28,578 nucleotides of DNA, from positions 1 to 28,578 of IMG/VR virus record IMGVR_UViG_3300020378_000032, one strand, 5' to 3'. Numbering within the stretch: position 1 is the first letter of the stretch; the number at the start of each line of letters is the position of its first letter. Under the pieces are notes generated by a model. That model was not told the origin of the DNA and did no database searches. It saw only the letters and a list, made by a program, of their open reading frames with translations. Below are positions 5,181-24,386 of the stretch, piece by piece. The stretch is from a virus. The position numbers and the translations under genes are program-made.

Positions 5181-5413
5181 TAAACTCTCCTTATACCATT
5201 ACTCCACTGTTCGAATTCTGTATATCCACCAATATATTCACCGTGTGCAGTGATTTGTGGAAAGGTTCTGGCTGTTGGAAACTTCTCAAAGAGCTCTTCT
5301 CTTGTAAAGTCCTCACCTATCATATAATATTTGTATTCATATCCCTTCTGTTCACAAAGATTCTTTGCACGAACACAAAAAGGACATGCTGGTTTACTCC
5401 ATATTTCAATCAT
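5180..5413 (-). CDS. Glutaredoxin (NrdC-like), 77 aa
   Basis: Thiol-disulfide oxidoreductase that probably re-reduces the phage ribonucleotide reductase after each turnover. The active site is KPACPFCVRAK (C-P-F-C near residue 9), followed by TFPQI (the cis-Pro TFP motif) and GGYTEFEQW (glutathione-binding GGxxE). The length is normal for a small glutaredoxin or NrdH-like protein. The start overlaps the cytochrome gene stop by eight bases. It is in the same run as nrdA and nrdB, which supports an electron-donor role. Confidence 0.92.
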   Translation of the reverse strand: MIEIWSKPACPFCVRAKNLCEQKGYEYKYYMIGEDFTREELFEKFPTARTFPQITAHGEYIGGYTEFEQWSNGIRRV

Positions 5414-6068: not shown

Positions 6069-7162
6069 AATTTAAAATCCGTAAATGTGTCATCTGTGAC
6101 ATCTTGTTTTATTCCACCAATTACATACGATTCTATCTCGGTCTCCTGTGGTGCATTCTGTAGACCTCTTGAGTTGAACCAGTGTCTTGTCCAAGGCAAC
6201 GGATTGTTTGCACTGGATATATCATATATTGGTTTCAACCCAATCATTCGTAATCTTTTATTTGCAATGTACTCAATGTAATTACTCAACAACGGTACAG
6301 ATAGTCCTATCATAGAACCGTCCTTGAATAAAAACTCTGCCCACTCTTTTTCCTGTAATACTGCGTCTTCATACATTTCGTATACTTCACTCTCACAATC
6401 TTTCATGACTTTGTTCATGATTTTATCGTTCTCATGATTCTGATAACATTTTAGAATGTGTTGTGATACTGCAAGGTGTTGAGCTTCGTCTCTTGCAATC
6501 AGTGATAATATTTTTGCACTTCCTTCCATGAGTTTCAGTTCACCAAATGCAAAACTACATGCAAAAGATACAAAGAATCTCAGTCCTTCTAATATGTTTA
6601 CAGATATTAGTGCAAGGTATAATGCTTTATATAATTCGTAATCGTCTACTTTGAGTCCTAGTAATCTTCTACGACCAAGTTGTATAAAATGGTCGTATCT
6701 TTCTGTGACCATTTCAGCTCTCTTTACAATAGCTTCTTCTTTCAATATTGTATCGAACACATCACTTGGGTCTGCATATACATTCTTTATGATATGTGTA
6801 TAAGACCTACTGTGTATGGTCTCCATGAAGTCCCAAGTAATAATGCAAGACTCAAGTTCAGGTAGAGACACGAAGGGTAGAAATGCTATGGATGGTGCTC
6901 GTCCCTGAACTGAGTCTAATAAGGTTTGATACCTCAAGTTTGAGGTAAAAATATGTTTCTGTGCTTTGTTTAGTTGTTGATAGTCTGCTCTGTCTTTTTG
7001 GAGCGATACTTCTTCGGGTCTCCAAAAGAAACCTAATTGTCTCTGAGTTAGTTTATCGAATATGGGATATTTAAACTCGTCAAATCTCTGTGTATTCAAA
7101 GGTTCACCAAAAAAAGGTTTTGCCTTTGTAAAATCTACTTGTTCTTTATTGAATACTGTCAT
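6065..7162 (-). CDS. nrdB: Ribonucleoside-diphosphate reductase class Ia beta subunit, 365 aa
   Basis: Small subunit that houses the diiron-tyrosyl radical needed to reduce ribonucleotides to deoxyribonucleotides. Expected ligands are all present: Asp in SLQKDRADY, Glu, His and the radical Tyr in METIHSRSYTHI (Glu/His/Tyr spacing as in E. coli E115/H118/Y122), Glu in EEAIVKRAE, Glu in NILEGLRFF, and Glu/His in ARDEAQHL. The C-terminal tail DDTFTDFKL is the usual alpha-subunit docking peptide. The start overlaps the upstream oxygenase stop as ATGA. It is separated from nrdA by that oxygenase, an unusual insertion. Confidence 0.97.
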   Translation of the reverse strand: MTVFNKEQVDFTKAKPFFGEPLNTQRFDEFKYPIFDKLTQRQLGFFWRPEEVSLQKDRADYQQLNKAQKHIFTSNLRYQTLLDSVQGRAPSIAFLPFVSLPELESCIITWDFMETIHSRSYTHIIKNVYADPSDVFDTILKEEAIVKRAEMVTERYDHFIQLGRRRLLGLKVDDYELYKALYLALISVNILEGLRFFVSFACSFAFGELKLMEGSAKILSLIARDEAQHLAVSQHILKCYQNHENDKIMNKVMKDCESEVYEMYEDAVLQEKEWAEFLFKDGSMIGLSVPLLSNYIEYIANKRLRMIGLKPIYDISSANNPLPWTRHWFNSRGLQNAPQETEIESYVIGGIKQDVTDDTFTDFKL

Positions 7163-8142
7163 TTCTTTTCCTTTAACTTAAATGATTCAAAATTGTTAAT
7201 AAACCATTTTTTCTCAAAATGTTCCCATGTTGCCTGATTGTACCATAATTCAGTAGCTGCATTAAATAATTTCATTTCCCATGTATCTTCGTCCTTTGGA
7301 AGATACCTTGATTCTCTTCCGTCAAACCTAAAAGGATTATATTCTCCCGAGAAATGGTCATATCTCTCTTTCATGTGAGGGGGAATGTATTTATCTTTTA
7401 TATCGTCCATGCCAGGCATATCTAACATTTTACCGTTTAAATTTATAAAATGCACAAAGATATGATAACTATATTCACCCATAAATTTATCTCTCCAGTG
7501 TGCAACATTTGGGCCTTGGTATAATAACAAGTCACCCACTTCTAAATCAATCTTCTTTGAGGTCTTTCTTCTTGTTATCGGGATTGACTGTGTACCCTCG
7601 TAAATCTCCGAAGGTTTTTCAATCCAATCATCAGAATTATCTATCCATATAGACCATGGTGAATTGTCGTCTGAGACATAATCCAAACATAGTGTACCAC
7701 TTATCTCACATGAGGGTCTATCTGAATGAGCTTTTAGATATGCACCTCTTTGATATTTTCTTGTATATGAATATGTTTCACCCAAATCCATATCGATATG
7801 GTTTTTCAATTCTTTCCATATCCAGTGGTGTAGTGCAACACCAAAAGGTGAACCCCACATTCCATTCGATTTATATAAAGTGTCTTCGGGAGAATTTTGT
7901 ATAATATCTTCTTCCAAATATAAATGTTCACTCATTTCGGGGTCGAGTTCCATTCTCTTCCATGTATCGAGTGCAAAGGTAATTATATCTTTGGGTATGA
8001 AGTTTCTTAAAACAACATATCCCTCTTTCATTAATTTCCAAGTGTCGGGATTAGTTCTCCCTTCGATTATTTTACCTTTTTCACTTTGGACTGCATTTTC
8101 AATATAATATTCTACAGTCCTATCTTCAAATCGCACAGGCAT
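7159..8142 (-). CDS. 2OG/Fe(II) oxygenase between nrdA and nrdB, 327 aa
   Basis: Fourth oxygenase-fold protein in the window. The metal site is visible as H139-x-D141 (LKAHSDRPSCEISGT) and distal H215 (GPNVAHWRDKF), with SGTLCLDY and DLLLYQG strands typical of the fold; the usual 2OG-binding Arg is not obvious, as YSYHIFVHFI occupies that region. Start 8142 follows GAGGAAG by eight bases; an in-frame start at 8166 lies deeper inside nrdA. It overlaps the nrdA stop by 17 bases and nrdB by four, so expression is tied to ribonucleotide reductase. The C-terminal 100 residues are rich in Trp, Phe and Lys and look like an added domain. Substrate unknown. Confidence 0.82.
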   Translation of the reverse strand: MPVRFEDRTVEYYIENAVQSEKGKIIEGRTNPDTWKLMKEGYVVLRNFIPKDIITFALDTWKRMELDPEMSEHLYLEEDIIQNSPEDTLYKSNGMWGSPFGVALHHWIWKELKNHIDMDLGETYSYTRKYQRGAYLKAHSDRPSCEISGTLCLDYVSDDNSPWSIWIDNSDDWIEKPSEIYEGTQSIPITRRKTSKKIDLEVGDLLLYQGPNVAHWRDKFMGEYSYHIFVHFINLNGKMLDMPGMDDIKDKYIPPHMKERYDHFSGEYNPFRFDGRESRYLPKDEDTWEMKLFNAATELWYNQATWEHFEKKWFINNFESFKLKEKK

Positions 8143-10429
8143 CGCAATCTTCCTCACCACCCTCAAAAGGGTCTTCCATAATTGGTTGTTCTTCTACCAC
8201 ATCTTCTACTTTACCGTCCATGGTATTGTGATAGTAAGATGTTTTCCAACCATATTTATATGTGGTCAATAGGTCTTTTGCCATAATAGATACAGGAACT
8301 TCATTGTTCTCGTAGTTCTCGGGATTATAAGACCAATTACCACTAATGGCTTGGTCAAAGAACTTCTGCATTACTGCAACCACATTTATATAACCCTCAT
8401 TTGAAGGCATATCCCATAATAAAGTATAACTGTTTTTCAGTGTAGAGTATTGAGGTACAACCTGTTTAAGTGTTCCTTTCTTACTCTTCTTGACTGATAA
8501 ATGGTCTCTAGGTGGTTCTATCCCATTTGTTGCGTTAGAAACGACGCTAGAGCTCTCTGAGGGCATTTGTGCAGTGAGTGTAGAGTGTCTTAGACCTCTA
8601 TCTTTTACTCTCTTTCTTAGACCTTCCCAGTCCATATTATACTTTGGTTTAACAAGTTCGTCAACGGACTTCTTGTATGTGTCGATTGGTAATATACCAT
8701 CTGCATATTTTGTTCTATCAAAGTAATCACATGCACCTTTCTCTTCTGCAATATCAGCTGATGCACATAGAAGATAATATTGGAATCTCTCTGTTAAATC
8801 GTGTACCAGTTCTAATGCTTGTGGGTCGTCATACTTTACCTTGTTCTTTGCAAGGTAATGTGCCAGTCCTATGTATCCTATACCAAGACTTCTTCTTGCA
8901 ATGGTTGACCTTTTTGCAGCTTCGACTGGATACTCTTGGTAATCTATCAGTTCTTCAAGTCCTCTCACTGCTAGTTCACAAAGAGATTCCATTTCCTCTT
9001 CTTTTACAATACCTACATTGATTGCAGACAATATACACAATGCAATCTCACCTTCCCCATCGATATGGTCGATAGGGTCGGTGGGTAATGTAATTTCTTG
9101 ACATAGATTACTCATGTTCACCTTATCTTTGAATGAACTATGAGTATTACTATGGTCAATATTCATTATGTAAATACGGCCAGTCTCTGCTCTTTCTTTT
9201 AATAAATCTGTAATCAGTTCTCTTGCACTGACTTTTGTTTTGGGTACGGAAGTTGCTCTCTCATACTTCTCATACATTTCATCAAACTCTTCTGTACCAA
9301 ATGCTTCGTATAAGCCAGGCACATCATGTGGTGAGAATAAAGTTATTTCACCGTTTTCCAAGAACCTTTGATAAAAGATTTGTGAGAGTTGGATAGAATA
9401 GTCGAGCTTACGAACTCTGTTGTCTTCGGTTCCCTTGTTGTTTTTGAGGACAAGAATGTCTTCGATTTCTTGGTGCCAGATTGGGAAATGAACGGTTGCA
9501 CTTCCACCTCTGACTCCGTTTTGTGTACAACACCTAACTGTTGATTCGAACTTCTTAAGGAATGGAATAACTCCAGTATGCTGGACTTCACCACCCCTAA
9601 TTTTTGAACCAATACCTCTAATTCTTCCAGCGTTGATTCCAATTCCAGCTCGTTGAGCGACATACTTTCCGATTGCATGGTCACTGGAGAAGATACTGGG
9701 TAATGAGTCATCTGAGTCAACGAGAACGCATGATGCAAATTGTCTGAGTGGAGTTCTAACTCCTGCCATGATTGGTGTTGGTATGTTAATTTTGAAAGTT
9801 GATATGGCGTCGTAATACCTTTTGACATAGTCTAGTCTTACCTCTTTGTCGTAGTTTTGAAATAGGGTCATTGCAATTAACATGTACATGAATTGTGGTG
9901 TCTCGAATACATCACCACTTGACCTATCCTGTACCAAATACTTGTCTACTATTTGTTGTAAACCAGCATATGTGAAAGATAAGTCTCTAGAATGTTTGAT
10001 ATATGAATTACATTTGTCAAACTCTTCTACCGTGTACATTTGTATAATATTTTTATCATATACACCATGGTCAATATTTCTATTAACAATATCTAACAAT
10101 GGTGGATATATTTCACTGTCTTTCCATTTTGTATTGAATACCTGTTTTTGAATTGCAAATAATAATAATCTTGCAGCCACAAACTGATAGTTTGGACTCT
10201 CTGTTGATATCAAATCATGTGCAGATTTGACTAATATAGATTGTATTTCTTTTGTTGTGATTCCCTCATAGAACTGTAGTCCACTATTCATTTCTACAGA
10301 AGACTCACTCACACCTGTAATATTTCTACAGGCTTTCTCTACCATTCTGTGAATTTTATCTAGGTCTATTGATACTTTGGTTCCGTCTGACTTGACAACT
10401 TTGATTCCCCCATTTCCGTTCTGATTCAT
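8126..10429 (-). CDS. nrdA: Ribonucleoside-diphosphate reductase class Ia alpha subunit, 767 aa
   Basis: Catalytic large subunit making dNDPs for phage DNA synthesis. It has an N-terminal ATP-cone (IKVVKSDGTKVSIDLDKI..., about residues 8-95), the first redox Cys in FASCVLVDSDD, the active-site triad N-x-C-x-E in MSNLCQEITLP, the partner Cys in GEIALCILSA, two radical-relay Tyr near NSYTLLWDMPSNEGY, and a C-terminal CxxC (DCDACAI) that takes electrons from glutaredoxin. Start 10429 overlaps the primase stop as ATGA; a GTG at 10441 would add four residues. The ATP-cone means allosteric dATP control is probably kept. Confidence 0.97.
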   Translation of the reverse strand: MNQNGNGGIKVVKSDGTKVSIDLDKIHRMVEKACRNITGVSESSVEMNSGLQFYEGITTKEIQSILVKSAHDLISTESPNYQFVAARLLLFAIQKQVFNTKWKDSEIYPPLLDIVNRNIDHGVYDKNIIQMYTVEEFDKCNSYIKHSRDLSFTYAGLQQIVDKYLVQDRSSGDVFETPQFMYMLIAMTLFQNYDKEVRLDYVKRYYDAISTFKINIPTPIMAGVRTPLRQFASCVLVDSDDSLPSIFSSDHAIGKYVAQRAGIGINAGRIRGIGSKIRGGEVQHTGVIPFLKKFESTVRCCTQNGVRGGSATVHFPIWHQEIEDILVLKNNKGTEDNRVRKLDYSIQLSQIFYQRFLENGEITLFSPHDVPGLYEAFGTEEFDEMYEKYERATSVPKTKVSARELITDLLKERAETGRIYIMNIDHSNTHSSFKDKVNMSNLCQEITLPTDPIDHIDGEGEIALCILSAINVGIVKEEEMESLCELAVRGLEELIDYQEYPVEAAKRSTIARRSLGIGYIGLAHYLAKNKVKYDDPQALELVHDLTERFQYYLLCASADIAEEKGACDYFDRTKYADGILPIDTYKKSVDELVKPKYNMDWEGLRKRVKDRGLRHSTLTAQMPSESSSVVSNATNGIEPPRDHLSVKKSKKGTLKQVVPQYSTLKNSYTLLWDMPSNEGYINVVAVMQKFFDQAISGNWSYNPENYENNEVPVSIMAKDLLTTYKYGWKTSYYHNTMDGKVEDVVEEQPIMEDPFEGGEEDCDACAI

Positions 10430-12304: not shown

Positions 12305-13042
12305 TTATCGTTTGAAGATGTCGTATTCTTTTTTCTTCTTTTTCTTTCCAAGTGCAGTTGGAGCCATTGATATTCCAACTCCTGTAGAATTGACTGGTGC
12401 GTCTTCTTTGAGACTCATGTCGACATAATCTATTAGTTCTTCTCCCAGTTTAACTCCTGCGTCATAATCAGAAGGATAATGTAATCCTGCTACGACTCTT
12501 CCGTATCCACATATCTTTGCACCATTCATGATTCCAGCTCTATGTTGTGGATACATTTTACTGTAATATTCTCCTACCAGTGTAGCTTGAGTTGCATGAC
12601 CACTAGGATATGCTGGTGTCTTACTTGTATCTGTTTCAAATTTGTTTAGTTCCAAACCTAGTTTCTCTGCAACTTGATATGGTCTTGGACGATTATAAAA
12701 GTTTTTAAAATGTTTTATTATAGGTCTACAGTTTTGTTCTATATGTGTTAGTGTATCTTCGTCATACTCTAGGTCATGTTCGTCCATGTATTGTTTGATA
12801 TAGTATGAAGTATCTAAGTCACAATTGATATATTGTTGTTTTTGTTTATCAGTTGTGTTTCCTATATCAGATATGATAGTTTTGACTTCCCTTACAACTT
12901 CGTTTCCTGTAGGTGGATTACCTAAATCTATTGACTCCCACCCGTCATGGAATATGTCTAATTTTTTATACTTTGGTTTTTTAAGGTCTTTTGCTGGTGC
13001 AAAAGTCATACCACTTATTTTTAATACATTCTCAATAAACAT
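12305..13042 (-). CDS. PAP2-superfamily phosphatase, class A acid phosphatase-like, 245 aa
   Basis: The three PAP2 signature motifs are visible: KHFKNFYNRPRP (K-x6-RP), AYPSGHATQA (PSGH) and GRVVAGLHYPSD (a G in place of the usual S of SR-x5-H-x3-D, with R, H and D kept). No membrane helices are present, so it resembles the soluble class A acid phosphatases more than lipid phosphatases, although it has no obvious signal peptide and would then be cytoplasmic. The C-terminus has a Lys run (GKKKKKKE). The ATG at 13042 is preferred to a GTG at 13051. It overlaps the upstream gene by 11 bases. The substrate could be nucleotides or other phosphoesters. Confidence 0.85.
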   Translation of the reverse strand: MFIENVLKISGMTFAPAKDLKKPKYKKLDIFHDGWESIDLGNPPTGNEVVREVKTIISDIGNTTDKQKQQYINCDLDTSYYIKQYMDEHDLEYDEDTLTHIEQNCRPIIKHFKNFYNRPRPYQVAEKLGLELNKFETDTSKTPAYPSGHATQATLVGEYYSKMYPQHRAGIMNGAKICGYGRVVAGLHYPSDYDAGVKLGEELIDYVDMSLKEDAPVNSTGVGISMAPTALGKKKKKKEYDIFKR

Positions 13043-13601
13043 CTTCTGCACTCAATAAAACTCTATTATCACCAACATATCCTTCGTATACTGATACTCC
13101 AAATATCTTTGCAACTTCACCTTTAACTTGGACTGCAGTTCTTGGAGTGTGACTATCTAATCTGTATCTGAGGTGATATGTTCCCTCATGTAATACTGGG
13201 AAGTTGACAGCTTCTACAATTTGGTCGGGGTGTAATAGTTCGTTGTCTTTTAATAGTCTGTAGAACTTTTCATATAGTTCTTCACCTTGTTCGTCTGATA
13301 AGTTTGCATGTTCCTTTAATAATAGTAATGCAACAGCATATGAAGCAAATGCAGTCTTACCGAAGGGTACTTTCTCTATGATTCTTTTTAGGTTGAATAC
13401 TAATCTATGTAATAGTGTAAATGAAGACTTCTCCATTTTTGATTCAGGGTTATTCTTGACCTCTTTCCCGTCAACCATTTTAGTTTTAATTCTCTTACCA
13501 TTTTGGTCAATAAAACCAAACTGGTATGCTTTATGTTTCTTAAATGGTGTGACCAACATTTTAAGCATGCGAAAGACTATTAGTGTATCTACAATTCTCA
13601 T
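13032..13601 (-). CDS. Conserved-type phage protein of unknown function, 189 aa
   Basis: The protein begins MRIVDTLIVFRMLKMLVTPF and has a long helical middle (SSFTLLHRLVFNLKRIIEKV, FASYAVALLLLKEH) and a basic, Val-rich C-terminal half. Similar N-termini occur in T4-like and other marine phages as I recall, without a known role. The ATG lies five bases after a CTAAATA late box, so it is probably expressed late and from a leaderless mRNA. It overlaps the phosphatase gene by 11 bases. There is no export signal; hydrophobic segments are short and look like buried helices. Confidence 0.68.
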   Translation of the reverse strand: MRIVDTLIVFRMLKMLVTPFKKHKAYQFGFIDQNGKRIKTKMVDGKEVKNNPESKMEKSSFTLLHRLVFNLKRIIEKVPFGKTAFASYAVALLLLKEHANLSDEQGEELYEKFYRLLKDNELLHPDQIVEAVNFPVLHEGTYHLRYRLDSHTPRTAVQVKGEVAKIFGVSVYEGYVGDNRVLLSAEDVY

Positions 13602-14061: not shown

Positions 14062-14472
14062 TTAGACTAATGAACCGTATACTTTATAACTACCGTTAGG
14101 TAGTTGTTCGTATCTCACTTTAAGAGATACAATCTTCTCTTCCTTTTCGATTTCATCGATTTCACTGTCGCCAGTTTTACCTATGATTTCTCCATATCTA
14201 GAGAAGTTTAGGTCGAATTCTCCTGATTCGGAAAATTCTAATTCCTCATCTGCAGTCTGAGGATTTAATCCGATTTGTGCAAGTTTCATCTTCATTCTTT
14301 CTACTGCACCCATAGGGTTTAAGAATTCTGATACTGCAACATGTCCTAATAATGCATTGACATGTCTTTTGACATCTGCGTCTTCTAAATCGTGGGGAAC
14401 TGAACCTGATGTTCGAAGGTCTAATCCTTCATGACCATGGTTTTCTGCTATAAAATCTCTAAACTTTTTCAT
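14062..14472 (-). CDS. Capsid-targeted internal protein candidate, 136 aa
   Basis: The N-terminus MKKFRDFIAEN closely matches the T4 internal-protein capsid-targeting sequence MKTYQEFIAE, which directs proteins into the prohead core and is cut after Glu10 by the gp21 protease; here I8-A9-E10 is the equivalent site. The rest is helical then beta-rich, with conserved-looking HVNALLGHVAVSEFLNPMGAVERM. Predicted to be packaged and delivered with the DNA. GGAG six bases before the ATG is a good ribosome site, and the start overlaps the previous stop as TAATG. Function after entry unknown. Confidence 0.68.
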   Translation of the reverse strand: MKKFRDFIAENHGHEGLDLRTSGSVPHDLEDADVKRHVNALLGHVAVSEFLNPMGAVERMKMKLAQIGLNPQTADEELEFSESGEFDLNFSRYGEIIGKTGDSEIDEIEKEEKIVSLKVRYEQLPNGSYKVYGSLV

Positions 14473-15306: not shown

Positions 15307-15879
15307 CTAACTTGCGATTTTCAATATTTGATTGAAAGTCTTTTTAAATGATTTACTATCTTTTTGTAATAGTCTCATGTATTTATCACGAATGGGAGCC
15401 CGAACAGCCATTAAAGTGTCATGAACTTTGACTGCATCTTGGTGTTTCACCTTAGTCTTTTTCATGTCGTCTGTTCTCACTTCCCCATTCTTACTGATAT
15501 CTTTGAACTTTCTCAACTGCATTAACATATTTGCATCAGGTCTTAATTGCATTCCCTGTGCCTTACTGTTGAATGCATCGATAGCTCTATCGATTACTTC
15601 GTCTTCTGAAGCCTCTGAATATTTTCCACCACTCATGGTAGATATTTTCTCTAATTTCTGTCTGAGTTCTTTCTCTGACTTAGATTTTGCAACTGCACGA
15701 GCAACCTTCTTGTTCCCACCGTCTGACATCATAGCAAAATCTGCAGTTTTCTCCATAACTTTGGATACTTGTTTTGCATCTTTTACATAACCTAACTTCT
15801 TAAGTTTCTCCTTAAAAAGTTTAGTTCTACCGTCTGTGGTTAGAATCTTTTGTACTTCTTTTGCCGTAAGTTTGGCCAT
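15307..15879 (-). CDS. Basic Lys-rich late-block protein, 190 aa
   Basis: Highly basic and helical, with no hydrophobic segment. The stretch LKKLGYVKDAKQVSKVMEKT resembles two segments of the upstream 762-aa protein (KKNKVKDAKIKKAVEVALDL and KKKNIAKDAKTVHKFTDMI), so it seems built from the same KDAK module. The start overlaps the upstream stop as TAATG with no strong ribosome site. Likely a DNA-associated internal protein, by composition and neighbours only. Confidence 0.62.
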   Translation of the reverse strand: MAKLTAKEVQKILTTDGRTKLFKEKLKKLGYVKDAKQVSKVMEKTADFAMMSDGGNKKVARAVAKSKSEKELRQKLEKISTMSGGKYSEASEDEVIDRAIDAFNSKAQGMQLRPDANMLMQLRKFKDISKNGEVRTDDMKKTKVKHQDAVKVHDTLMAVRAPIRDKYMRLLQKDSKSFKKTFNQILKIAS

Positions 15880-18167
15880 TACAATGCACCATATACATCA
15901 TCGTGATTAGAATGTGCATTCTTTGATTGTCTCATTAAATTATCAAAGATTTGATTTCTTATCTGTATCAATTCCTGAGGCATATGTCCATATACTTTAT
16001 GCATATCTTTGATACTACCTAGTAATTTGATTGCTTCTTTGTCTCTTAATTCTTTTGCAAGTAATAGTAATGATTCGTTATGGTCATTTCTATCTGTTAA
16101 CTTTGCAATCTTTTGAATTATTTTTGGATTCATTTCTTTCTTTTCTACTATTGCATTTTCCCACATAGTTCTGTATGAATCCATAACATTTTTCTCTTCT
16201 GCTTTGATTGAACCACCTCTAGGTCTTTTCATTTTACCTTTTGGTAAGTTTCCAAAACCTTTAAATCCACCTCTTCCCTCTAATAATTCTAGGTCGAGTG
16301 CAATTGATACATAAGGACTTGCACTTTCTAATTTTGCTTTTACTGGTGAATTATCAGGTGTATGTTCAGGATTATCTCTGAAATACCATTCTCTAGGCAT
16401 TTGAACAATTTTGTTTCCCTTGAACTTCAAATCACCACCAGTCCATTTTGTTAAGTGTCTCATGAGTAATTCATTCATGTCCATTCCAGCTTTGAGTCCT
16501 TTTTTCTTTGCATAGTCCGCTGACCTTTTCATGTAGTCTTCACTATGTCTTTCACCATCATACTGGTCAACTTCTCCACCCTTAGAAATAGTTTCTAATG
16601 AACCTAATTCGTCAAAGAATGTATCGTCACCAAAAATATCATAAATCATATCTGTAAATTTATGAACTGTTTTAGCGTCTTTTGCAATATTCTTTTTCTT
16701 TAGAATGTCTTGTAGTTTTACTAATTTAGGATATGAATCAGGGATTGCCCATGTTCCTTCTTGTAGGTTTACTTCCTCTTTCATAGGAATATTTTTTGCA
16801 ATCTTATAGAATTTCTTTATAGATTCAAGACCTTTTACGATACCACCACGAACCATTGAAAATGCTGGTGCTGATAAACCTGAACCTCTCATAGTTTTAT
16901 CTACTTCTTTAAGCATGTTCTGTAGTTTCTTTTCAAGTTTTTCTACATTCTTTACATCTTTATCGTCATATGGTTTTTCCATTAAGTTATGTACTTGAGA
17001 CAATGTTTCTGTGAGTTCGTCTTGAAGTTGTAGTTCTACTGATTCTGACTTACCTTTAACCTTTGCAGCTAAGTCTTTGTCTGCACCACCCCATGTTCCT
17101 TTTGATTTAGTGACAAAGCTATTCACTCTTGCCATTGCCCACTGCGGTGCAGTTGCGCCTGGCCTGTGTCCTGTTTTGTATGCAGCGAGTCCTCTGTTGT
17201 ATACCTGTTTCAATATACCTAGAGGCATTCCTGATTTCTCTGCTTTATTTTTAAGTCCTTCTTCGTTCTCGTCTAGGACTTCTTCTTTCTTGTCTTTTTT
17301 ACCTTTTGCTTTGTATCCACTTGCAAATGCAGCTCTTCTTTGTGCATCACTCTTGAATCCTTCTTTTACTGATTCCAAGTGTGCAAAGAACTCACCCATG
17401 ATATCGTCTAGATACTCATCGATAACTTCGTCTGTTTGGTCGGGGTCATCAGTATTGATATCTCCGTTTTCCCATGCAAGATTGTATAATGCCATGTAAA
17501 CTTTGTGTCTACCCATTTCAGGACTTTGTCCTTTCTTTGCAAGCATTTCGATTTCTTTTTTGTATTTCCTTGCAATTTGTTTAGGTTTCATTGCACGACC
17601 TTCAACGATATCAGAAGGGTCATACTCCATCTTCTGCATCATTTTTTGTGCAAGATTAACAAGAACTTCAATCTTTGATTTGTCCATTTTCTGTTTGTTC
17701 TTGTCATTTACTTTATCATAGATTTGTGTAATCATAGATGCAGTAAACATATCAACCATAACACCACCAACTTTAGCTGCACCTTTTGTGTCAACTATTT
17801 TTTGAAGGTCGGGGATTAAACTTTTTTCTGTAAGATTGTTTATATCTTCATGCAAAATACCAACCAATTGATTCATTTCAAATGATTCATTTGCATACTT
17901 GAGTGCATGTTTTACTTCTTTAGAATTGAGAATCTTATTTCCGAAAAACTTTTTGATTTCTTTTTGTGCAACTGACATTGCACCACCGAGGTCTAGTGCA
18001 ACCTCTACTGCTTTTTTGATTTTTGCATCTTTAACTTTATTCTTTTTAAAGTATTGTGCAACTTCTTGACCTGTTAGTTTCTGTCTACCGTATGGCCCTA
18101 ACGCGTCAACTTTACCGTCTTTGGTTAGGATATCTTTCTTTTCTTTTAACTCTTGGAATATATTCAT
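15879..18167 (-). CDS. Large Lys/Glu-rich protein with DUF5824-like region, 762 aa
   Basis: The largest protein of the late block. An N-terminal part carries the KDAK module (FKKNKVKDAKIKKAVEVALD). The centre has a basic stretch FKSDAQRRAAFASGYKAKGK, followed by SGMPLGILKQVYNRGLAAYK and TGHRPGATAPQWAMARVNSF, which resembles DUF5824 of phage proteins (about residues 310-370). A second KDAK module lies near 485, and the C-terminus has a Gly/Lys-rich segment (GRGGFKGFGNLPKGKMKRPR). Several [L/V]-x-E-G sites (NLQEG, VKEG, LLEG) could be prohead-protease cuts that split it into domains. No enzyme motif recognised. Probably a packaged or core-associated protein. Confidence 0.68.
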   Translation of the reverse strand: MNIFQELKEKKDILTKDGKVDALGPYGRQKLTGQEVAQYFKKNKVKDAKIKKAVEVALDLGGAMSVAQKEIKKFFGNKILNSKEVKHALKYANESFEMNQLVGILHEDINNLTEKSLIPDLQKIVDTKGAAKVGGVMVDMFTASMITQIYDKVNDKNKQKMDKSKIEVLVNLAQKMMQKMEYDPSDIVEGRAMKPKQIARKYKKEIEMLAKKGQSPEMGRHKVYMALYNLAWENGDINTDDPDQTDEVIDEYLDDIMGEFFAHLESVKEGFKSDAQRRAAFASGYKAKGKKDKKEEVLDENEEGLKNKAEKSGMPLGILKQVYNRGLAAYKTGHRPGATAPQWAMARVNSFVTKSKGTWGGADKDLAAKVKGKSESVELQLQDELTETLSQVHNLMEKPYDDKDVKNVEKLEKKLQNMLKEVDKTMRGSGLSAPAFSMVRGGIVKGLESIKKFYKIAKNIPMKEEVNLQEGTWAIPDSYPKLVKLQDILKKKNIAKDAKTVHKFTDMIYDIFGDDTFFDELGSLETISKGGEVDQYDGERHSEDYMKRSADYAKKKGLKAGMDMNELLMRHLTKWTGGDLKFKGNKIVQMPREWYFRDNPEHTPDNSPVKAKLESASPYVSIALDLELLEGRGGFKGFGNLPKGKMKRPRGGSIKAEEKNVMDSYRTMWENAIVEKKEMNPKIIQKIAKLTDRNDHNESLLLLAKELRDKEAIKLLGSIKDMHKVYGHMPQELIQIRNQIFDNLMRQSKNAHSNHDDVYGAL

Positions 18168-18171
18168 GGTA

Positions 18172-18903
18172 CTAAAACCCGAACATCATGTCATATAAGT
18201 CGGGGTCTGCCTTTTCTATTGCTTTTGCAACACCGTCTCTTACATCGGTGTCTAACTTAGATATCATTTTATCTAATTGTTTAAGTGTTCTTCCTGATAG
18301 AATTTCCATGTCGTCATACATTTCTGTTTCTAAATTTTTACTGACGAATTTTGCAATATCTTTAACTTCTCTATCTTGACCTTTGTTTTTCTTTTCTATC
18401 TTCTCAACTTTTGCAAGTTCTTTTGCAACATTTTTAAGGCTTTTAGATTGATATTTACCTTTCTTTCCTTCGTCTAGTTCTACTTGTTCTGAGAAATGTT
18501 TAATCATTACATCAGTTGCTTTATGTAAATCACTTTTACTTCCCTTTGCTATGACTCTGTAGTATCCATATCCTTTTTCTGCAACTGCAGAATCAACAAA
18601 CTTTTCTATTTTCTTTATGAACATATCAGCTTCTTTCTGATTATCGAGAACATAAGTTATAGCTAGTTCGTCTAATTGGATACCTCTAAAATATTCTCTG
18701 ACTGATACACCTTCGTTCTTACCTTTATAGTTCTTATCTACATAGTCAAAAAACTTTTTCTTTTCTTCGTCTGATTTAAAATCTGCTGGAGAGTTCACAC
18801 CAAATTTCTTTAGTGCTTTCTTAAAGAACTCTTCGTAATCTGCGCCCTGTTGTAAAAGTTTTCTTGAATCTTCTACTAGGTCTTTGGGTAGGTCGTGTAT
18901 CAT
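18172..18903 (-). CDS. Lys-rich late-block protein with FGV-type module, 243 aa
   Basis: Near the N-terminus the segment FKKALKKFGVNSPADFKSDE then KKKFFDYVDKNYKG is a short helical module I recall from several marine phage proteins. A middle region (about 80-135) with KGYGYYRVIAKGSKSDLHKA looks like a small alpha/beta domain. L143-D-E145 before G146 is a candidate prohead-protease site that would split it from a basic C-terminal helical part. The start overlaps the upstream stop as ATGA. No function known. Confidence 0.62.
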   Translation of the reverse strand: MIHDLPKDLVEDSRKLLQQGADYEEFFKKALKKFGVNSPADFKSDEEKKKFFDYVDKNYKGKNEGVSVREYFRGIQLDELAITYVLDNQKEADMFIKKIEKFVDSAVAEKGYGYYRVIAKGSKSDLHKATDVMIKHFSEQVELDEGKKGKYQSKSLKNVAKELAKVEKIEKKNKGQDREVKDIAKFVSKNLETEMYDDMEILSGRTLKQLDKMISKLDTDVRDGVAKAIEKADPDLYDMMFGF

Positions 18904-19616
18904 TGTTCCAATTCTCCTTTTTCAAAATAGTCAAACATTTTTTGTTTGCCTTCTTCGTTCAGTTGGAGTTGTTTTGCAAGACGACCCAACATATTTCTTT
19001 CTACGAGTTTCTCTGTAGTCTTTTCAACTGATTCTTGAACTTCGGTTTCTTCCATTGCTGGGAGTTCACCCATTTTTGCAGCCATTCTTGCAAATCCTTT
19101 TGGATTTTGTTTCTGCATTTTTTGTAGAACTTTGACATCAGTCATATTAAGGAGATTTGCAACTCCAGCGACTTCGTTATCCTTCTTGAGTCTGAACAAT
19201 TTCTTAATCATGTCACCACTGGACATGTTCTTTTCGTCTAAATCTAACTCAACTTCTTCTCTTGCATCGATAATCTTTTGAGTTTCTAGTTCACCGATTA
19301 ATGATAAGATTTCTTGTTGAGCTTTTAGAATAGACTCATACTTCTCGTTGAATTTGGTATCCTTAAGTGTTTGGTCACCCATTTTTGCAATCTTGAAGTA
19401 ATCTTTCTTTGCCTTTTCAATAAGTTTAGAAAGTTTCTTGACTGCACCAATCTCTTTATCAGTGACTTCTTGAATGTCGTCAAATGTATTAAGTTCTTCT
19501 TCAATTTGAGATTCAAGAATCTCGTCCGCTGTTTTCTCCACACTACCTTCTTTTAAAGCAATGTGATTACGAACTTGTTCTAGTTTCTCTTTCCAGTTTT
19601 CTGACTTATAACTCAT
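18900..19616 (-). CDS. Helical coiled-coil late protein, 238 aa
   Basis: A charged, almost entirely helical protein with coiled-coil character from about residue 25 to 120. An early L21-K-E23 before G24 would release a 23-residue N-terminal peptide if cut by the prohead protease, similar in place to a propeptide. The late box TATAAATA ends eight bases before the ATG; there is no ribosome site, so the mRNA would have a leader of only a few bases. It starts a run of four overlapping genes of like composition. Scaffold-like or packaged role is inferred. Confidence 0.65.
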   Translation of the reverse strand: MSYKSENWKEKLEQVRNHIALKEGSVEKTADEILESQIEEELNTFDDIQEVTDKEIGAVKKLSKLIEKAKKDYFKIAKMGDQTLKDTKFNEKYESILKAQQEILSLIGELETQKIIDAREEVELDLDEKNMSSGDMIKKLFRLKKDNEVAGVANLLNMTDVKVLQKMQKQNPKGFARMAAKMGELPAMEETEVQESVEKTTEKLVERNMLGRLAKQLQLNEEGKQKMFDYFEKGELEQ

Positions 19617-19624
19617 AACAGTAT

Positions 19625-19632
19625 TATTTATA
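19625..19632 (-). promoter_or_regulatory. Consensus T4-type late promoter TATAAATA
   Basis: Exact match to the T4 late -10 consensus on the minus strand, eight bases before the ATG at 19616. It overlaps the end of the preceding cupin-like gene region and is the clearest late promoter of the window. Confidence 0.7.
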
Positions 19633-19912
19633 TATTCTCTATCTTTACAACAAGATTTCCTTGTCCTTTTATAACTCGGTGATATACCATTCTAGGGATT
19701 GCATATTTTTTACCTACAATTAGGGTTTGAGGAAGCTCGTTATCTAACTGCAACTTCCAGTCCTGTCCATTAAGAACCGTGACCCGTCTAGTGTCTTCGT
19801 CCCTATGCCAGATTAACTCTCTGTCTTCTAGGTCTTCTTCGAAAGTCCTACAAATATAGGTTTCTTTCGTCCCGTGTTTCTCTAGTTTTTCATCGGTATA
19901 TGGTCGTGTCAT
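19628..19912 (-). CDS. Cupin-like small protein, 94 aa
   Basis: The pattern ELIWHRDEDTRRVTVLNGQDW, then LDNELP, GKKYAIP and YHRVIKGQGNLVVKI is that of a compact beta barrel, with His in WHRD and YHR placed like cupin metal ligands. Similar short proteins occur widely in T4-like marine phages, with no known role that I can name. AAGGAAAGG sits directly before the ATG. A TATAAT-like sequence is 12 bases upstream without a matching -35. Its stop lies in the late box that serves the next gene. Confidence 0.65.
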   Translation of the reverse strand: MTRPYTDEKLEKHGTKETYICRTFEEDLEDRELIWHRDEDTRRVTVLNGQDWKLQLDNELPQTLIVGKKYAIPRMVYHRVIKGQGNLVVKIENI

Positions 19913-19936
19913 ACCTTTCCTTATATTATATATGGT

Positions 19937-20467
19937 TTACCAAAAGAAGTCTCCACCGTCTGAAAGACCCAATTGTTTTGCATACTGAGGTAAACGACAT
20001 GCCCAGTATCGAGCAGTTGTTTTGTCATTTGCAGTATCACATTTGTGTCTTGCAGCGAAAGATTTTCTTGCAGCTTTATTACCTAATTTTACTTTTAAAC
20101 CTGTTGTATCACCCCATGTTATCTTCTTAATTTTCTCTGTCTTTGGGTCTTTTACATAAACATAGTATTTCTTTGGGCCACCGACTTTGGGTGAATTGAG
20201 TTCTACATCTTTCTCTTCGTGCATAGGACAATCTAAGGGTACATTTTGTCCCTTGTATTCTGCAAACTCTCCTAAATCTGTCTCTAAAAGTCTGTTATCT
20301 ACTGCAGTAGGTTTGTAATTACCCTCTAAATGTAGTCTTCGTGCTTCGTTGATTGTTTGAAAGAACATTTCTGAACCCAAACGGAATGGATTGTCAAAAA
20401 TATTGACTTCGTTCTCTTGCATACTATCAAGAGTTTCTTGGATTGCAATACTTTTGAAAGGTTTCAT
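19937..20467 (-). CDS. Hypothetical late protein with C-terminal Cys/Arg-rich module, 176 aa
   Basis: The N-terminal half is acidic. The C-terminal part, KKITWGDTTGLKVKLGNKAA, then RKSFAARHKCD and ARYWACRLPQYAKQLGL with a GDFFW end, is a module seen repeatedly in phage proteins, with paired Cys around RHKC and WACR that may bind metal. The N-terminus MKPFKSIAIQE is not a good capsid-targeting match. The start overlaps the previous stop (TAATG) with GGGGTGAG upstream. Function unknown. Confidence 0.65.
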   Translation of the reverse strand: MKPFKSIAIQETLDSMQENEVNIFDNPFRLGSEMFFQTINEARRLHLEGNYKPTAVDNRLLETDLGEFAEYKGQNVPLDCPMHEEKDVELNSPKVGGPKKYYVYVKDPKTEKIKKITWGDTTGLKVKLGNKAARKSFAARHKCDTANDKTTARYWACRLPQYAKQLGLSDGGDFFW

Positions 20468-20874
20468 TACTCACCCCTGTCTTTCTTGACTAGGTCACTC
20501 ATAATTTTCATGTTCTCTTCACCACTTTTACTTGCATCATATTCGTATGCTTTCTCTTCTTCTCCTACTGCCCAACTACCGTCAATATATTTGACTTTTA
20601 CTTTTTGCATAGGATAATCAGGTATAGCGAAAGGTGCAACTTCTTCCTGTATCTCTTCAACTTTAAACTCTTCGTTATAAGGATAATCTTTTAAAGGATT
20701 ACCAAACACCTGAGAAAAGTGTTTCTTGACTTTATTCTTTTGTTCGTGGAATGCCTTTTCTTTTTCCTCTATGTAGTCTTCTACACTTTGGCCAGGCGTA
20801 TCTTCTTGATAAGATACTCTAATCTCATCTGTACCTAATTCAAGGACTCCGTTATCATGTTTATTTCCTGACAT
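20467..20874 (-). CDS. Acidic late-block protein, 135 aa
   Basis: An acidic protein starting MSGNKHDNGVLELGTDEIRV, followed by TPGQSVEDYIEEKEKAFHEQ. No motif recognised. It lies six bases after the stop of the cysteine-rich micropeptide gene and lacks its own ribosome site, so its translation probably depends on ribosomes finishing that micropeptide. Confidence 0.62.
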   Translation of the reverse strand: MSGNKHDNGVLELGTDEIRVSYQEDTPGQSVEDYIEEKEKAFHEQKNKVKKHFSQVFGNPLKDYPYNEEFKVEEIQEEVAPFAIPDYPMQKVKVKYIDGSWAVGEEEKAYEYDASKSGEENMKIMSDLVKKDRGE

Positions 20875-20880
20875 AATTAA

Positions 20881-20925
20881 TTAACAACACTCACAATTAC
20901 AACATTTGCAACATTTACAGTTCAT
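20881..20925 (-). CDS. Cysteine-rich micropeptide, 14 aa (MNCKCCKCCNCECC)
   Basis: A 14-residue frame with eight Cys in a C-x-CC-x-CC-x-C-x-CC pattern, ATG to TAA. AAGGAG sits nine bases before the ATG, the best ribosome site in this part of the window, and overlaps the end of the upstream gene four bases away. The pattern is like a minimal metallothionein arm, so it could bind Zn, Cu or another soft metal. It could also be a leader peptide whose translation sets expression of the next gene. No known family is recalled. Confidence 0.6.
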   Translation of the reverse strand: MNCKCCKCCNCECC

Positions 20926-20929
20926 GTTT

Positions 20930-21895
20930 TTATTTCTCCTTTTTTGATAAGTATGCGGCAATGGCCATTTTTCTAATTTTCTTATCGGATTTACCCTTAA
21001 ACTGGGGCGCATCCGACTTCCTGAAATCGTCAATATAATCTCCTGCGTCTGATTTTGCAGTTAACTTCTCACCATACATTTTTGCAAACTTCTTAGTGTG
21101 AGTAGATTTTTTAGTCTTGATTGGATTACCCTCGTCATCTTTATCGCCTGGCGCAGGGCCCGTCTTTCCTTGTTTGAAGTGTGCGTCTCTCTTCTGTTTA
21201 GTTTCTTTGTCTAAACCTTTGTAGTATTTTTTAGGTTGTGTACCCTTATTTTTACCTACATCTCTGTCTTGTTCTTCTTTGTCCTCATACTTTGGTGATT
21301 TCTTTTTAGTTCCGTCTGCACGAGGTATAAGTCCTTTTGCTTTTAAATGTGTTATATCACCGAATCCAGCCTTACCAGCTTTGTGTCTTTTCATTGCATC
21401 TTCTGTATCAGGTGCTTTCTCTTCTAATTCTACGGATTCGTTAGCTTTCCTTGCAGATTCTCTTTCTGCTTCAATCTGTTTGTTTATAGCTTCTTTTTCT
21501 TTCTGTTGATTGATTCTCTCCATTTCTCTCTCATGTCTATCTTGGAGATTCTCTAATTCTAATTCGTGTTTTGCTTGAAGTCTTTCTAATTCTTCTGCCT
21601 GTTTTGCTTTGAGATTTGCAGCGTCAACTGCAGCGTCTTCTTGTATAGGTTCGTCCCCAAACTTGAGGAATAGTCTATTTTTGGATTGTTTTTTATCTGT
21701 GACTTTTGCACCTACCATTGCACCGATTGTATTAATCATTGCAATACCTTTCTCAGAGTTCTTTTGATACTCTCGACCTAACTTAGATTTTAGGTCTGAC
21801 ATGATTTTATCTAGAACACTTGAAAAATCAGATACAAGTTTACCTTCTTCCAAAGGGAGTTCTTTTTTAATCTCGTTGAATTTTTTTGCAGCCAT
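20930..21895 (-). CDS. Lys-rich coiled-coil late protein, 321 aa
   Basis: The product starts MAAKKFNEIKKELPLEEGKL with a candidate prohead-protease cut at L15-E-E17 before G18. A coiled coil (AEELERLQAKHELELENLQD, REMERINQQKEKEAINKQI) fills about 105-150, then comes a Lys/Gly/Asp-rich low-complexity region with HLKAKGLIPRADGTKKKSPK and QPKKYYKGLDKETKQKRDAH, and a C-terminal DAPQFKGKSDKKIRKMAIAA. Such tails are common in marine T4-like phage proteins. ATG 21895 lies five bases after a GATAAATA late box; the longer in-frame start at 21940 is upstream of that box. Probably packaged. Confidence 0.65.
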   Translation of the reverse strand: MAAKKFNEIKKELPLEEGKLVSDFSSVLDKIMSDLKSKLGREYQKNSEKGIAMINTIGAMVGAKVTDKKQSKNRLFLKFGDEPIQEDAAVDAANLKAKQAEELERLQAKHELELENLQDRHEREMERINQQKEKEAINKQIEAERESARKANESVELEEKAPDTEDAMKRHKAGKAGFGDITHLKAKGLIPRADGTKKKSPKYEDKEEQDRDVGKNKGTQPKKYYKGLDKETKQKRDAHFKQGKTGPAPGDKDDEGNPIKTKKSTHTKKFAKMYGEKLTAKSDAGDYIDDFRKSDAPQFKGKSDKKIRKMAIAAYLSKKEK

Positions 21896-21900
21896 AATAC

Positions 21901-21908
21901 TATTTATC
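21901..21908 (-). promoter_or_regulatory. Late promoter GATAAATA overlapping a stop codon
   Basis: GATAAATAG on the minus strand, five bases before the ATG at 21895. The TAA of the box is the stop codon of the upstream cytidylyltransferase-kinase gene, so one triplet serves both. Confidence 0.6.
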
Positions 21909-23184
21909 CTTTTTTCCTTGCAAGCATTCGTTCTTTCCACTTGAGAGCAAGTTTATTCTTTGGATAAGAAGTAGTCCATGTCATTAATTTACTGTACAAT
22001 GCACCTGCCTTTTTATCTAATGCTTGTACTGTATCGTCATTTTTAATCTCATAGAAATCTCTTCCAAATAGTTTTTTGTACTCATTTGCAGCTGCCATTG
22101 CTTTGTCCCAATCTGATTTTACAATTTCAGGTGGAAGTTTTCTTGCACGCATATCATTTCTTTTTTGTGCATTATCTAAAGAAGTCACAACGAATACCAT
22201 TTTGTATTCATATCCTAATTTATCTAATAACTTTTTATAACTGACAATCTTATTTTTATTTGCAGCTGTAGTGTCAAATATCATACCAAGTCTTCCAGCA
22301 ATATAGTTATCCATATTCTTACCAGTTATCTTCTTTGCCTTTGCACGAATCGGGTCAACCTTATCAAAGTCTGCACCTCTTAAATCAAGAGATAGACCTG
22401 CTTTCTTTAATCCGTTCTCAAATGCTTGGTCGGTATTTACCATTTTAAGACCTAGTGCTTTCAACCCAAGTTTATTTACAACTGTAGATTTACCACTGCC
22501 TGGCCCACCCATAAGGAAAACTGCTTTGAAGATGCCTGGGTCATAAACTCCTTCTTTGACTAAATCTTCTATCATATATTCAGGTAGAGTTCCTTCGTTG
22601 ATACCCATACCTTTTCTGATATCGTCATATAGTTTCTTTGCAAGGTTTTTACCTTTACTTGGAACACCGTCTTTGAATCCTTCGAAATCTCCTTTCTCTG
22701 CAAACTCTCTCATTTTACTTGCAGACATTCCTGATACATCATCTGCATCGGGGTCTCTTTCTCCAGCAGAGATTATATTAATTTCTTTGAATTTGTAATA
22801 ACCGTGTCTTGCTTTAACTCCGTTGTATTTTGTTAATAGAGCTTCAAACTCTTTTACTCTGTCTGAACCTACAACCATATTTACTTTAGTATATTTCTTT
22901 TGTTGTAGATAATTACAAATCTCAAATACAGTTCTTACATTTGCATCAACTACAATTCTTCCAAAGAACTTACGGAGATATTTTACTTTGTCTTTATGTG
23001 ATAACGGATTTTTTCTTTTATCGTTTGAATGAGAAGAGAATAATAAAACATCTGTACCCTTACCCACTGATTGAAGTTTCTTTACAAGTTTTTCGTGTCC
23101 TGTTGTGGGTGGGTTGAATCGACCAAAAGTAAATGTTGCACCTTGGTCTTTTGCTTCTGTTAAAAATTTACCGAATGTTTTCAT
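21904..23184 (-). CDS. Cytidylyltransferase-like / P-loop kinase fusion with capsid-targeting N-terminus, 426 aa
   Basis: Two domains. Residues 17-190 are a nucleotidyltransferase of the HxGH type: FTFGRFNPPTTGH (T27-T-G-H30) and the late motif SGMSASKMR (151-159), as in NMN or phosphopantetheine adenylyltransferases. Residues 220-426 are a P-loop kinase: Walker A MGGPGSGKS (226-233) with DTTAANK and ITGKNMDNYI. The N-terminus MKTFGKFLTEA matches the T4 capsid-targeting sequence (MKTYQEFIAE) with cleavage expected after E10, so the enzyme is probably packaged and injected. A second site, I195-N-E197 before G198, lies in the linker between domains. Substrates unknown; NAD precursor metabolism or nucleic-acid end repair are options. 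Confidence 0.8.
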   Translation of the reverse strand: MKTFGKFLTEAKDQGATFTFGRFNPPTTGHEKLVKKLQSVGKGTDVLLFSSHSNDKRKNPLSHKDKVKYLRKFFGRIVVDANVRTVFEICNYLQQKKYTKVNMVVGSDRVKEFEALLTKYNGVKARHGYYKFKEINIISAGERDPDADDVSGMSASKMREFAEKGDFEGFKDGVPSKGKNLAKKLYDDIRKGMGINEGTLPEYMIEDLVKEGVYDPGIFKAVFLMGGPGSGKSTVVNKLGLKALGLKMVNTDQAFENGLKKAGLSLDLRGADFDKVDPIRAKAKKITGKNMDNYIAGRLGMIFDTTAANKNKIVSYKKLLDKLGYEYKMVFVVTSLDNAQKRNDMRARKLPPEIVKSDWDKAMAAANEYKKLFGRDFYEIKNDDTVQALDKKAGALYSKLMTWTTSYPKNKLALKWKERMLARKKG

Positions 23185-24386
23185 TACTTGTCCCAGTTCT
23201 TTTGTGCAGTAAAGTTATTGAATGCAAACTCCATTCGGTCTACAAGTTTAACTGCACTTCCTGTTTTATCGATTGCAACATAACCTTCGGGGTTTACTAC
23301 CTCAAAACCATTTGCAGTCTTTTTAAATGTTCCTATACTCTTTACTCTATTTAGGACATTTATGACCATTTGTTTTGCACTGACTAAGTGTCCCATGAAT
23401 GCAGTAAGGTTTGTTATAAACTTTTTAAGAGACCTCAACTCTTTTAAAATAGAGTCACCAATTTCTCTCTTGATTTGTTTTGTCTTTTCTGTTTTTACTT
23501 TACCAACTACCTTATCAGCCCAATAAGACTCGAAGTGTGATATGTATCCTTCATATGTCGGATTGAAACTACCACCTCTGATAAGTGTATTACAATATGT
23601 TTTATAACTTGCACCAGCTCCCTTAGAACCGATTGCAGTTTGTAATTCTTGAAATTTATTTAAATCTTTTTTCTTGATTCCGTGGAATGCACTTCCTGTT
23701 TTAGATAATTCTTGAGTCAATGCAAGTGTTTCTTTTGCAGTCATGGAACCTTTACCACTTACATCTTTATAACTTGCATCGTCAATCCATACATCTGAAC
23801 TACTTCCTAGTTTAGATATGTTTGCACCAAAACTTGCACCTAAATCTTGTATAGTTCCACCTGTGTATGTGGTATGAAATACAATACCCATTTTAGATTT
23901 TGCAATTTGTTTACCTAAATCTGATTCAGCTAATACTGCATATAAAATAGTATTTGGTTGGAATGTGATAAATGATTTACCGTCAATCTTTTGCATTTTC
24001 TTATCGTTGGTATACATTAAATCACCTTGCATGATTGTATTCCAAGATAGTTTAGATAGGTATTTGAATGAAGTAAGAAACTTCTCTTGTAATTGACCTG
24101 ATAAATCGGGTGATTCTTTTATCTCTTGTTCTGAGGTATAGAATAAAGGTGTCTTATTAAATAGTGATTTCTTTGCAACAAAGAATTGACCAGTCTCGGG
24201 GTGTTTACCACAAAAGATAGCAGGAGCTCCGTCCCACTTTACAGTCATTTTAACACCTGACTGTGCATTTCCCTTTAACATGTCACGAAGACCTTGCAAA
24301 AAGTTTATTGCACCACGACCACCGTCAATACCTTGATTGATGATTTCGTCTTCTAAATGTTCTAAATGTAAGTTCTTTGCACCCAT
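23184..24386 (-). CDS. Ligase-like nucleotidyltransferase (DUF6267-like), 400 aa
   Basis: The segment MTVKWDGAPAIFCG has K50-x-D-G, the lysine motif of ATP-dependent DNA/RNA ligases and capping enzymes. Near the C-terminus E367-G (NPEGYVAI) and K380 (AVKLVDR) sit where ligase motifs IV and V would. A GDLMYTND segment and GIVFHTTY may supply motifs II-III. I recall the family as a DUF (DUF6267) in marine T4-like phages; unchecked. It shares its TAATG junction with the kinase fusion gene, which together could form an end-repair pair. The ATG has an extended -10 (TGATATAAT) six bases upstream and a late box 36 bases upstream. Confidence 0.7.
   Translation of the reverse strand: MGAKNLHLEHLEDEIINQGIDGGRGAINFLQGLRDMLKGNAQSGVKMTVKWDGAPAIFCGKHPETGQFFVAKKSLFNKTPLFYTSEQEIKESPDLSGQLQEKFLTSFKYLSKLSWNTIMQGDLMYTNDKKMQKIDGKSFITFQPNTILYAVLAESDLGKQIAKSKMGIVFHTTYTGGTIQDLGASFGANISKLGSSSDVWIDDASYKDVSGKGSMTAKETLALTQELSKTGSAFHGIKKKDLNKFQELQTAIGSKGAGASYKTYCNTLIRGGSFNPTYEGYISHFESYWADKVVGKVKTEKTKQIKREIGDSILKELRSLKKFITNLTAFMGHLVSAKQMVINVLNRVKSIGTFKKTANGFEVVNPEGYVAIDKTGSAVKLVDRMEFAFNNFTAQKNWDK

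Follow-up and report, generated by a model that had tools for sequence, protein, structure and literature searches.

A putative T4-type capsid-targeting sequence on a nucleotidyltransferase-kinase of a T4-like phage and on unrelated phage proteins from natural waters

INTRODUCTION

In phage T4, a ten-residue N-terminal leader sends proteins into the prohead core (reviewed in PMC9026906). Mutagenesis of this leader showed that positions 4 and 7 weigh most in targeting and positions 8 and 10 in processing; when position 10 is Asp, packaging is kept and processing is blocked (PMC9026906).

The cargo that marine T4-like phages carry besides DNA is mostly unknown. A transferase has been detected by mass-spectrometric proteomics in purified virions of the cyanophage S-SM1, as T4-GC190 (PMC3037559), in purified particles of S-SCSM1 (PMC9602691) and S-SZBM1 (PMC9146016), and, with three unique peptides, in virions of S-CREM2 (PMC10665884). 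The authors of the S-CREM2 (PMC10665884) and S-SCSM1 (PMC9602691) studies noted that carry-over is possible in such detections.

Here we analyze 28,578 nucleotides of DNA from a marine virus of bacteria (positions 1 to 28,578 of IMG/VR record IMGVR_UViG_3300020378_000032; hereafter the window), which encode a transferase of this family fused to a kinase. Residues 1-10 of this enzyme are very probably a T4-type capsid-targeting propeptide, with which the enzyme would be loaded into the prohead, cut after Glu10, kept in the virion and injected.

RESULTS

Gene, domains and linker of the nucleotidyltransferase-kinase

The coordinates originally proposed for the gene were correct, but the strand had to be changed: the open reading frame (ORF) runs on the minus strand, from an ATG at 23184 to a stop at 21904, and the protein starts MKTFGKFLTEAKDQGATFTFGRFNPPTTGH (Table 1). 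The start codon and the stop codon of the upstream DUF6267 gene overlap within TAATG, which is preceded by GGGACAAG. This start position, or a variant of it, is kept in nearly all of 67 homologous loci, and the start codon is sound.

Table 1. Features of the window discussed in the text. A slash marks a predicted or candidate cut.
Feature	Position	Strand	Basis
Two-domain nucleotidyltransferase-kinase (NTase-kinase), 426 aa, N-terminal leader	21904..23184	-	ORF; Pfam; PHROG; 68 IMG/VR relatives
Leader MKTFGKFLTE, residues 1-10, predicted cut E10/A11	23155..23184	-	Match to T4 IPII/IPIII; cluster conservation
Adenylyl/cytidylyl-transferase domain, residues 13-196	22597..23148	-	CoaD/NadD/NMNAT fold; TTGH and GMSASKMR motifs
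Linker, residues 197-219, candidate sites INE197/G198 and VKE211/G212	22528..22596	-	Conservation; low pLDDT; site count
P-loop kinase domain, residues 220-404, GGPGSGKST	21973..22527	-	AAA_33; kinase fold
DUF6267 protein, ligase-like KWDG motif	23184..24386	-	Pfam DUF6267, E 1e-103
Gene block, modules fused behind NTase in Melnitz g18 and HTVC008M gp130 (762, 176 and 320 aa)	15879..21892	-	blastp
Untagged 135-aa protein, C-terminal module APFAIPDYPM...SKSGEEN	20467..20874	-	Similarity to relatives read by eye
Second leader-bearing gene, 136 aa, MKKFRDFIAE/N, leader at 14443-14472	14062..14472	-	Strict motif at gene start

The two-domain architecture and the length of 426 residues were as first described. 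Pfam placed CTP_transf_like at residues 19-122 and AAA_33/Zeta_toxin at 220-366 (AAA_33, E 4e-10), and the transferase part matched PHROG 3041/395 (cytidyltransferase). Transferase and kinase were the only Pfam domains of the enzyme; the ADP-ribosyltransferase domain of the T4 Alt family was not found in it. An AlphaFold2 model built from 26 relatives had a mean pLDDT of 73 and a pTM of 0.46. As modeled, the fold of each domain is reasonable, and the mutual placement of the domains is not fixed. In structure comparisons the transferase half resembled CoaD, NadD and NMNAT (VIA-align Z about 13), and the kinase half had the fold of UMP/CMP and adenylate kinases (Z about 14); fold searches returned CoaD, NadD, NMNAT and adenylate-kinase folds and favored no single substrate class. 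The GGPGSGKS P-loop was invariant across the 26 relatives, and the transferase motifs NPPTTGH and GMSASKMR were invariant or nearly so. Both halves are therefore probably active.

The original prediction also pointed to an I-N-E-G motif in the linker. The motif is present (I-N-E197/G198), a second candidate follows (V-K-E211/G212), and both agree with the sites preferred for cleavage in T4. The 26 relatives all keep E197 and E211, which lie in or beside a stretch of low model confidence (pLDDT under 50 at residues 198-217). Three [LIV]xE[AGS] sites were counted in the NTase-kinase against 0.77 expected, a weak excess (P = 0.036) for a short motif of which similar sites arise by chance in control proteins. 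In HTVC008M the two halves are encoded separately, the kinase by gp129 and the transferase by another gene. Kinase-less relatives, however, keep a Glu close to where E197 stands (QVEES in S-SM1, VRES in Melnitz), and this residue may therefore be structural rather than a cleavage residue. Taken together, a second cut by the prohead protease after E197 or E211, with the transferase and the kinase traveling separately, is possible but doubtful.

Match of the leader to T4 and its conservation in the transferase family

The T4 record gave MKTYQEFIAE/AR for ipII, MKTYQEFIAE/AS for ipIII and MKTFKEFTST... for ipI. The residue-by-residue match of MKTFGKFLTEA to T4 MKTYQEFIAE, from which the original prediction started, was confirmed with the ipII and ipIII sequences. 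The leader in the window begins at the initiator Met, is about 10 residues long and has aromatic residues at F4 and F7, aliphatic L8, and E10 followed by A11. Model confidence was low at residues 1-10 (mean pLDDT 41), and order began at residue 11. The proposed contrast between the small internal proteins that bear the tag in T4 and the large enzyme that bears it here holds, but cargo this large has a precedent: Alt of T4, with 682 aa, is a large enzyme that is packaged and trimmed.

From the collected loci, 224 members of the transferase family were gathered and grouped into 26 clusters at 70% domain identity. The leader was present in 24 of the 26. F7, E10 and A11 were found in all 24 leader-bearing clusters, F4 in 23 (Tyr in the other) and L/I8 in 21, and positions 3, 5, 6 and 9 were variable. 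Since this conservation sits on the residues that are functional in T4 mutagenesis, it was counted in favor of T4-type targeting. The strict motif was found in 194 of 226 transferase ORFs, and nearly all the others had a variant shifted by one residue (e.g., MKFKQFLSEA and MTNKNFTSWLSEA). The catalytic core starts 19 to 154 residues downstream of the leader. This variable spacing, together with the low model confidence at residues 1-10, excludes the leader as a piece of the transferase fold; judged from alignments and model, leader and enzyme are separable modules.

The collecting scans ranked transferase candidates by queries that contained the leader, which possibly biased them toward leader-bearers. 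The bias check covered eight isolates whose match began downstream of the leader, plus P-SSM2. In this set the leader was present in P-TIM40 (MRFLDFIKEA) and P-SSM2 (MKSFSQFLTET), and no NTase leader was found in S-RSM4, S-H9-1, P-HM2, S-CAM1, S-MbCM7, S-PM2 and Pseudomonas phage Deifobo. The leader is thus not universal across the wider transferase family. In the S-RSM4 group, a small neighboring gene has the degenerate leader MKDFKKLREEA. The product of P-HM2_164 (L248:2071-3387) starts MKSLSDFTKKSKVAE/ANIT, which is closer to the longer T4 IPI leader than to that of IPIII. Melnitz g18 has a shortened form of the leader.

The leader could also be a scaffold-binding motif only, which targets the protein to the prohead and is not removed; the protein would then be a structural or assembly part and would not be injected. 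The T4 leaders with Asp10, packaged and unprocessed (PMC9026906), would suit such a role, as would HTVC008M gp130, which starts MKTLKELLRKK, without E10 or F4/F7. However, the invariance of Glu10 and Ala11 in all leader-bearing clusters makes an uncut leader hard to explain, and the catalytic motifs of both domains are as conserved as described above. We consider a permanently retained leader unlikely.

Virion detection of homologues and gene neighborhood

When translated, the transferases detected in virions were found to start MKKFSAFLNE/A (S-SM1), MKSFLQFLKE/A (S-SCSM1), MKNFSSFLTE/A (S-CREM2) and MRFRQFIIE/A (S-SZBM1). The detections concern these four leader-bearing cyanophage homologues and not the fused NTase-kinase. 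In S-SCSM1, neighbors 89, 90, 92, 93, 95 and 97 of the transferase are annotated as virion proteins too. The leaderless NTase of S-PM2, absent from S-PM2 virions, was dropped as a negative control, since two modules are mixed in the T4-GC190 cluster and the earlier proteomics had less depth. No usable virion proteomics of pelagimyophages was found among the abstracts searched.

In the window, the NTase gene adjoins the replication genes uvsX and gp41. This neighborhood, and the carry-over named as possible by the authors of two of the proteomes, would fit an N-terminal peptide that binds the replisome, the membrane or the transcription machinery, the virion detections being contamination and the likeness to T4 convergence. 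The leader nevertheless agrees, in residue order and register, with a 10-mer whose function has been mapped, several other genes of the S-SCSM1 block have virion-protein annotations, and the tagged genes of other phages are not replication genes; such a binding role is very improbable.

No gene of the window has an internal strict match, and a second gene starts with one, MKKFRDFIAENHG (14472->14062). A 65% identical relative of this second tagged gene, in the 129.7-kb record G010, starts MKTFKNFITEA and the HTVC008M homologue starts MKSFKDFQ; HMM searches gave the gene no name. Two relatives of the DUF6267 protein also carry the leader (MKSFKSFITEA in L258, MKSFQTFLNEA in L290). In S-PM2 (L245:373-2148), a leaderless transferase is fused to the DUF6267 C-terminus; in the window the two are encoded by separate, adjacent genes that overlap. 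The C-terminal module of the untagged 135-aa protein occurs in L012, L035, L036 and L047 as a free protein of 66-69 aa with an MKTFKEFLKEE-type leader, encoded just upstream of the transferase. In six loci the small tagged gene is fused ahead of the NTase and supplies the N-terminal tag, and only the decayed form ...NSFENLTEAK is left of the NTase's own leader. By blastp, the 762- and 320-aa proteins of the gene block matched HTVC008M gp130 (70% and 53%, respectively), and the 176-aa protein matched Melnitz g18 (61%). Neighboring proteins held 15 candidate cleavage sites against 8.0 expected (P = 0.0135), and control genes 8 against 8.4; heavy multi-site processing of these proteins is suggested by the counts but was not relied on.

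Several other genes of the window, all on the minus strand, were noted in passing. The gene at 5406-5852 encodes a 148-aa protein whose start is membrane-like and which has a CAACH heme-binding motif; it looks like a phage cytochrome c. Those at 269-874, 856-1575, 1541-2275 and 7159-8166 look like 2OG-Fe(II) oxygenases, which are common in cyanophages and pelagimyophages, and the one at 12305-13051 has the look of a PAP2-type acid phosphatase (YPSGHATQ ... HYPSD).

Head genes are absent from the window, a 28.6-kb fragment. A Peptidase_S77 prohead protease and a Gp23 shell protein are encoded by its relatives G010, HTVC008M, S-SM1 and Melnitz. They were found in 7 of 11 long tagged records, which are themselves fragments and of which two were transferase loci rather than pattern hits, versus 0 of 5 control-pattern records.

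Occurrence of the leader on unrelated proteins

The search for the motif across related phages that had been called for extended the leader well beyond the transferase clusters. An exact DNA pattern for MKxFxxF[LIMF]xEA was scanned over IMG/VR and hit at least 120 stretches. Among the matches listed, 112 of 123 stood at ORF starts, versus 3 of 40 for a permuted pattern in the same collection (Fisher P 3e-23). Transferases made up 45 of these 123, and 71 gene-start matches were not recognized as transferases. The latter fell into 37 clusters, about five of them truncated or divergent transferases, so that among the matches listed the leader heads at least about 30 non-homologous families. DUF6267 ligase-like proteins (E 1.5e-102) are among the tagged cargo, as are a GNAT acetyltransferase (E 1e-7), a 5'-3' deoxyribonucleotidase (PHROG 2643, E 1e-21) and, by a weak match, a metallopeptidase; ADP-ribosyltransferase-like and pol-beta-type nucleotidyltransferase-like proteins were judged by eye only. 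In the clearest pairs of unrelated tagged proteins, the best alignment was confined to the first 11-14 residues.

A relaxed pattern gave 43 matches in 21 records, of which about 20 are expected from the way the records were recruited and about 23 are extra; the permuted pattern gave 0 and the reversed pattern 1. Five tagged genes lay within one 14-kb record. With a register-tolerant motif in 223 loci, 219 of 7,954 gene-start candidates matched, versus 13 of 21,374 in-frame internal start-like codons. After removal of the NTase family, 19 gene-start matches stood against 13 internal ones (odds ratio 4, P = 1e-4). Strict hits in the nearly whole genomes of S-SM1, HTVC008M and Melnitz numbered 1 (the transferase), 0 and 1 (the neighbor g15, MQGFKTFLSEA), respectively. 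In T4 they were ipII, ipIII, gene 61.1 and one spurious match near a gene's end.

A chance likeness in the Lys/Phe-rich proteome of an AT-rich phage, which a ten-residue motif with about half of its positions free might seem to invite, is practically ruled out by the internal-codon, permuted-pattern and reversed-pattern controls and by the gene-start bias (P about 1e-23 among the matches listed).

Three tagged loci deserve separate mention. T4 gene 61.1 (L082:18966-19130), uncharacterized and 54 aa long, starts MKTFKEFIKED and may, by this match, encode a further T4 internal protein. Record G017 (L416:1-3601) has five consecutive genes with MKTFKQFI-type leaders, including ADP-ribosyltransferase-like and metalloprotease-like (HELTHW) proteins, and has the look of a cargo island. 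A tagged ADP-ribosyltransferase-like protein, MKQFKDFITEKK..., encoded in G010 (L408:95-547), a relative of the window's phage, is a possible counterpart of T4 Alt.

DISCUSSION

By every sequence test, the leader of the NTase-kinase is a T4-type capsid-targeting sequence. The original proposal that it heads an enzyme which should be packaged gains support from the conservation of the leader, its portability and the homologues detected in virions. The cut after Glu10 and the delivery to the host are predicted by analogy with T4. In the proposed mechanism, the segment with F4, F7 and L/I8 would dock the new NTase-kinase onto the prohead scaffold core, as in T4. A gp21-type protease would then cut after Glu10 during head maturation, and the enzyme would start at Ala11. 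It would remain in the finished virion, as its homologues do in published proteomes, and would enter the cell with the DNA, where a nucleotide or cofactor would be its immediate substrate. Many other, unrelated cargo proteins of T4-like phages from natural waters would use this tag too.

We lean somewhat toward a broader reading, in which the leader serves these phages as a general address label and marks a large, mostly uncharacterized set of head-packaged, injected proteins, an early-acting kit that can be listed from sequence alone. If so, the set would include transferases, ligase-like proteins, acetyltransferases, ADP-ribosyltransferase-like proteins, nucleotidases and metalloproteases, and the kit might serve, for example, in cofactor or nucleic-acid repair against host defense. 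The recurring virion cytidylyltransferase of cyanophages puzzled the authors who reported it, and a tag of known function offers a mechanism. The tag makes packaging testable at the single residues 4, 7, 8 and 10. It also lets candidate injected proteins be read from genomes and so lists what T4-like phages probably carry into their hosts.

The mechanism itself is already known; what appears to be new is that the tag heads a conserved enzyme of marine T4-like phages and recurs in at least about 30 cargo families. In the literature outside subscription journals, no paper was found that ties the tag to cyanophages or pelagiphages, by which we do not imply priority.

Among known systems, NadR, an NMN adenylyltransferase with a ribosylnicotinamide kinase, has the same domain order and folds as the enzyme of the window, an NMNAT-type fold followed by a P-loop kinase. 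The NadR profile TIGR01526, however, gives the window enzyme 32.9 bits, far under the cut-off of 341, and the enzyme was therefore not classed as NadR. The closest virion protein is T4-GC190, the cytidylyltransferase or NMNAT-like protein of cyanophage virions, which has a homologous transferase domain (37-45% identity) and the same leader, but lacks the kinase domain and in most cases has more residues between leader and transferase. In the cyanophage virion studies consulted, no link of its N-terminus to a targeting signal was found. T4 Alt resembles the window enzyme as predicted here in being a large head-packaged enzyme from which gp21 cuts a short N-terminal propeptide; its leader, MELITELFDE, is different, and it has neither a nucleotidyltransferase nor a kinase domain. 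The T4 internal proteins IPI, IPII and IPIII share with the window enzyme the pattern MK-x-[FY]-x-x-F-[LI]-x-E followed by Ala, with unrelated cargo behind it, in T4-like phages. Their cargo is small and basic, whereas that of the window is a 426-aa two-domain enzyme, and the leaders in phages of aquatic bacteria sometimes have one residue fewer ahead of the first Phe than the leader of T4.
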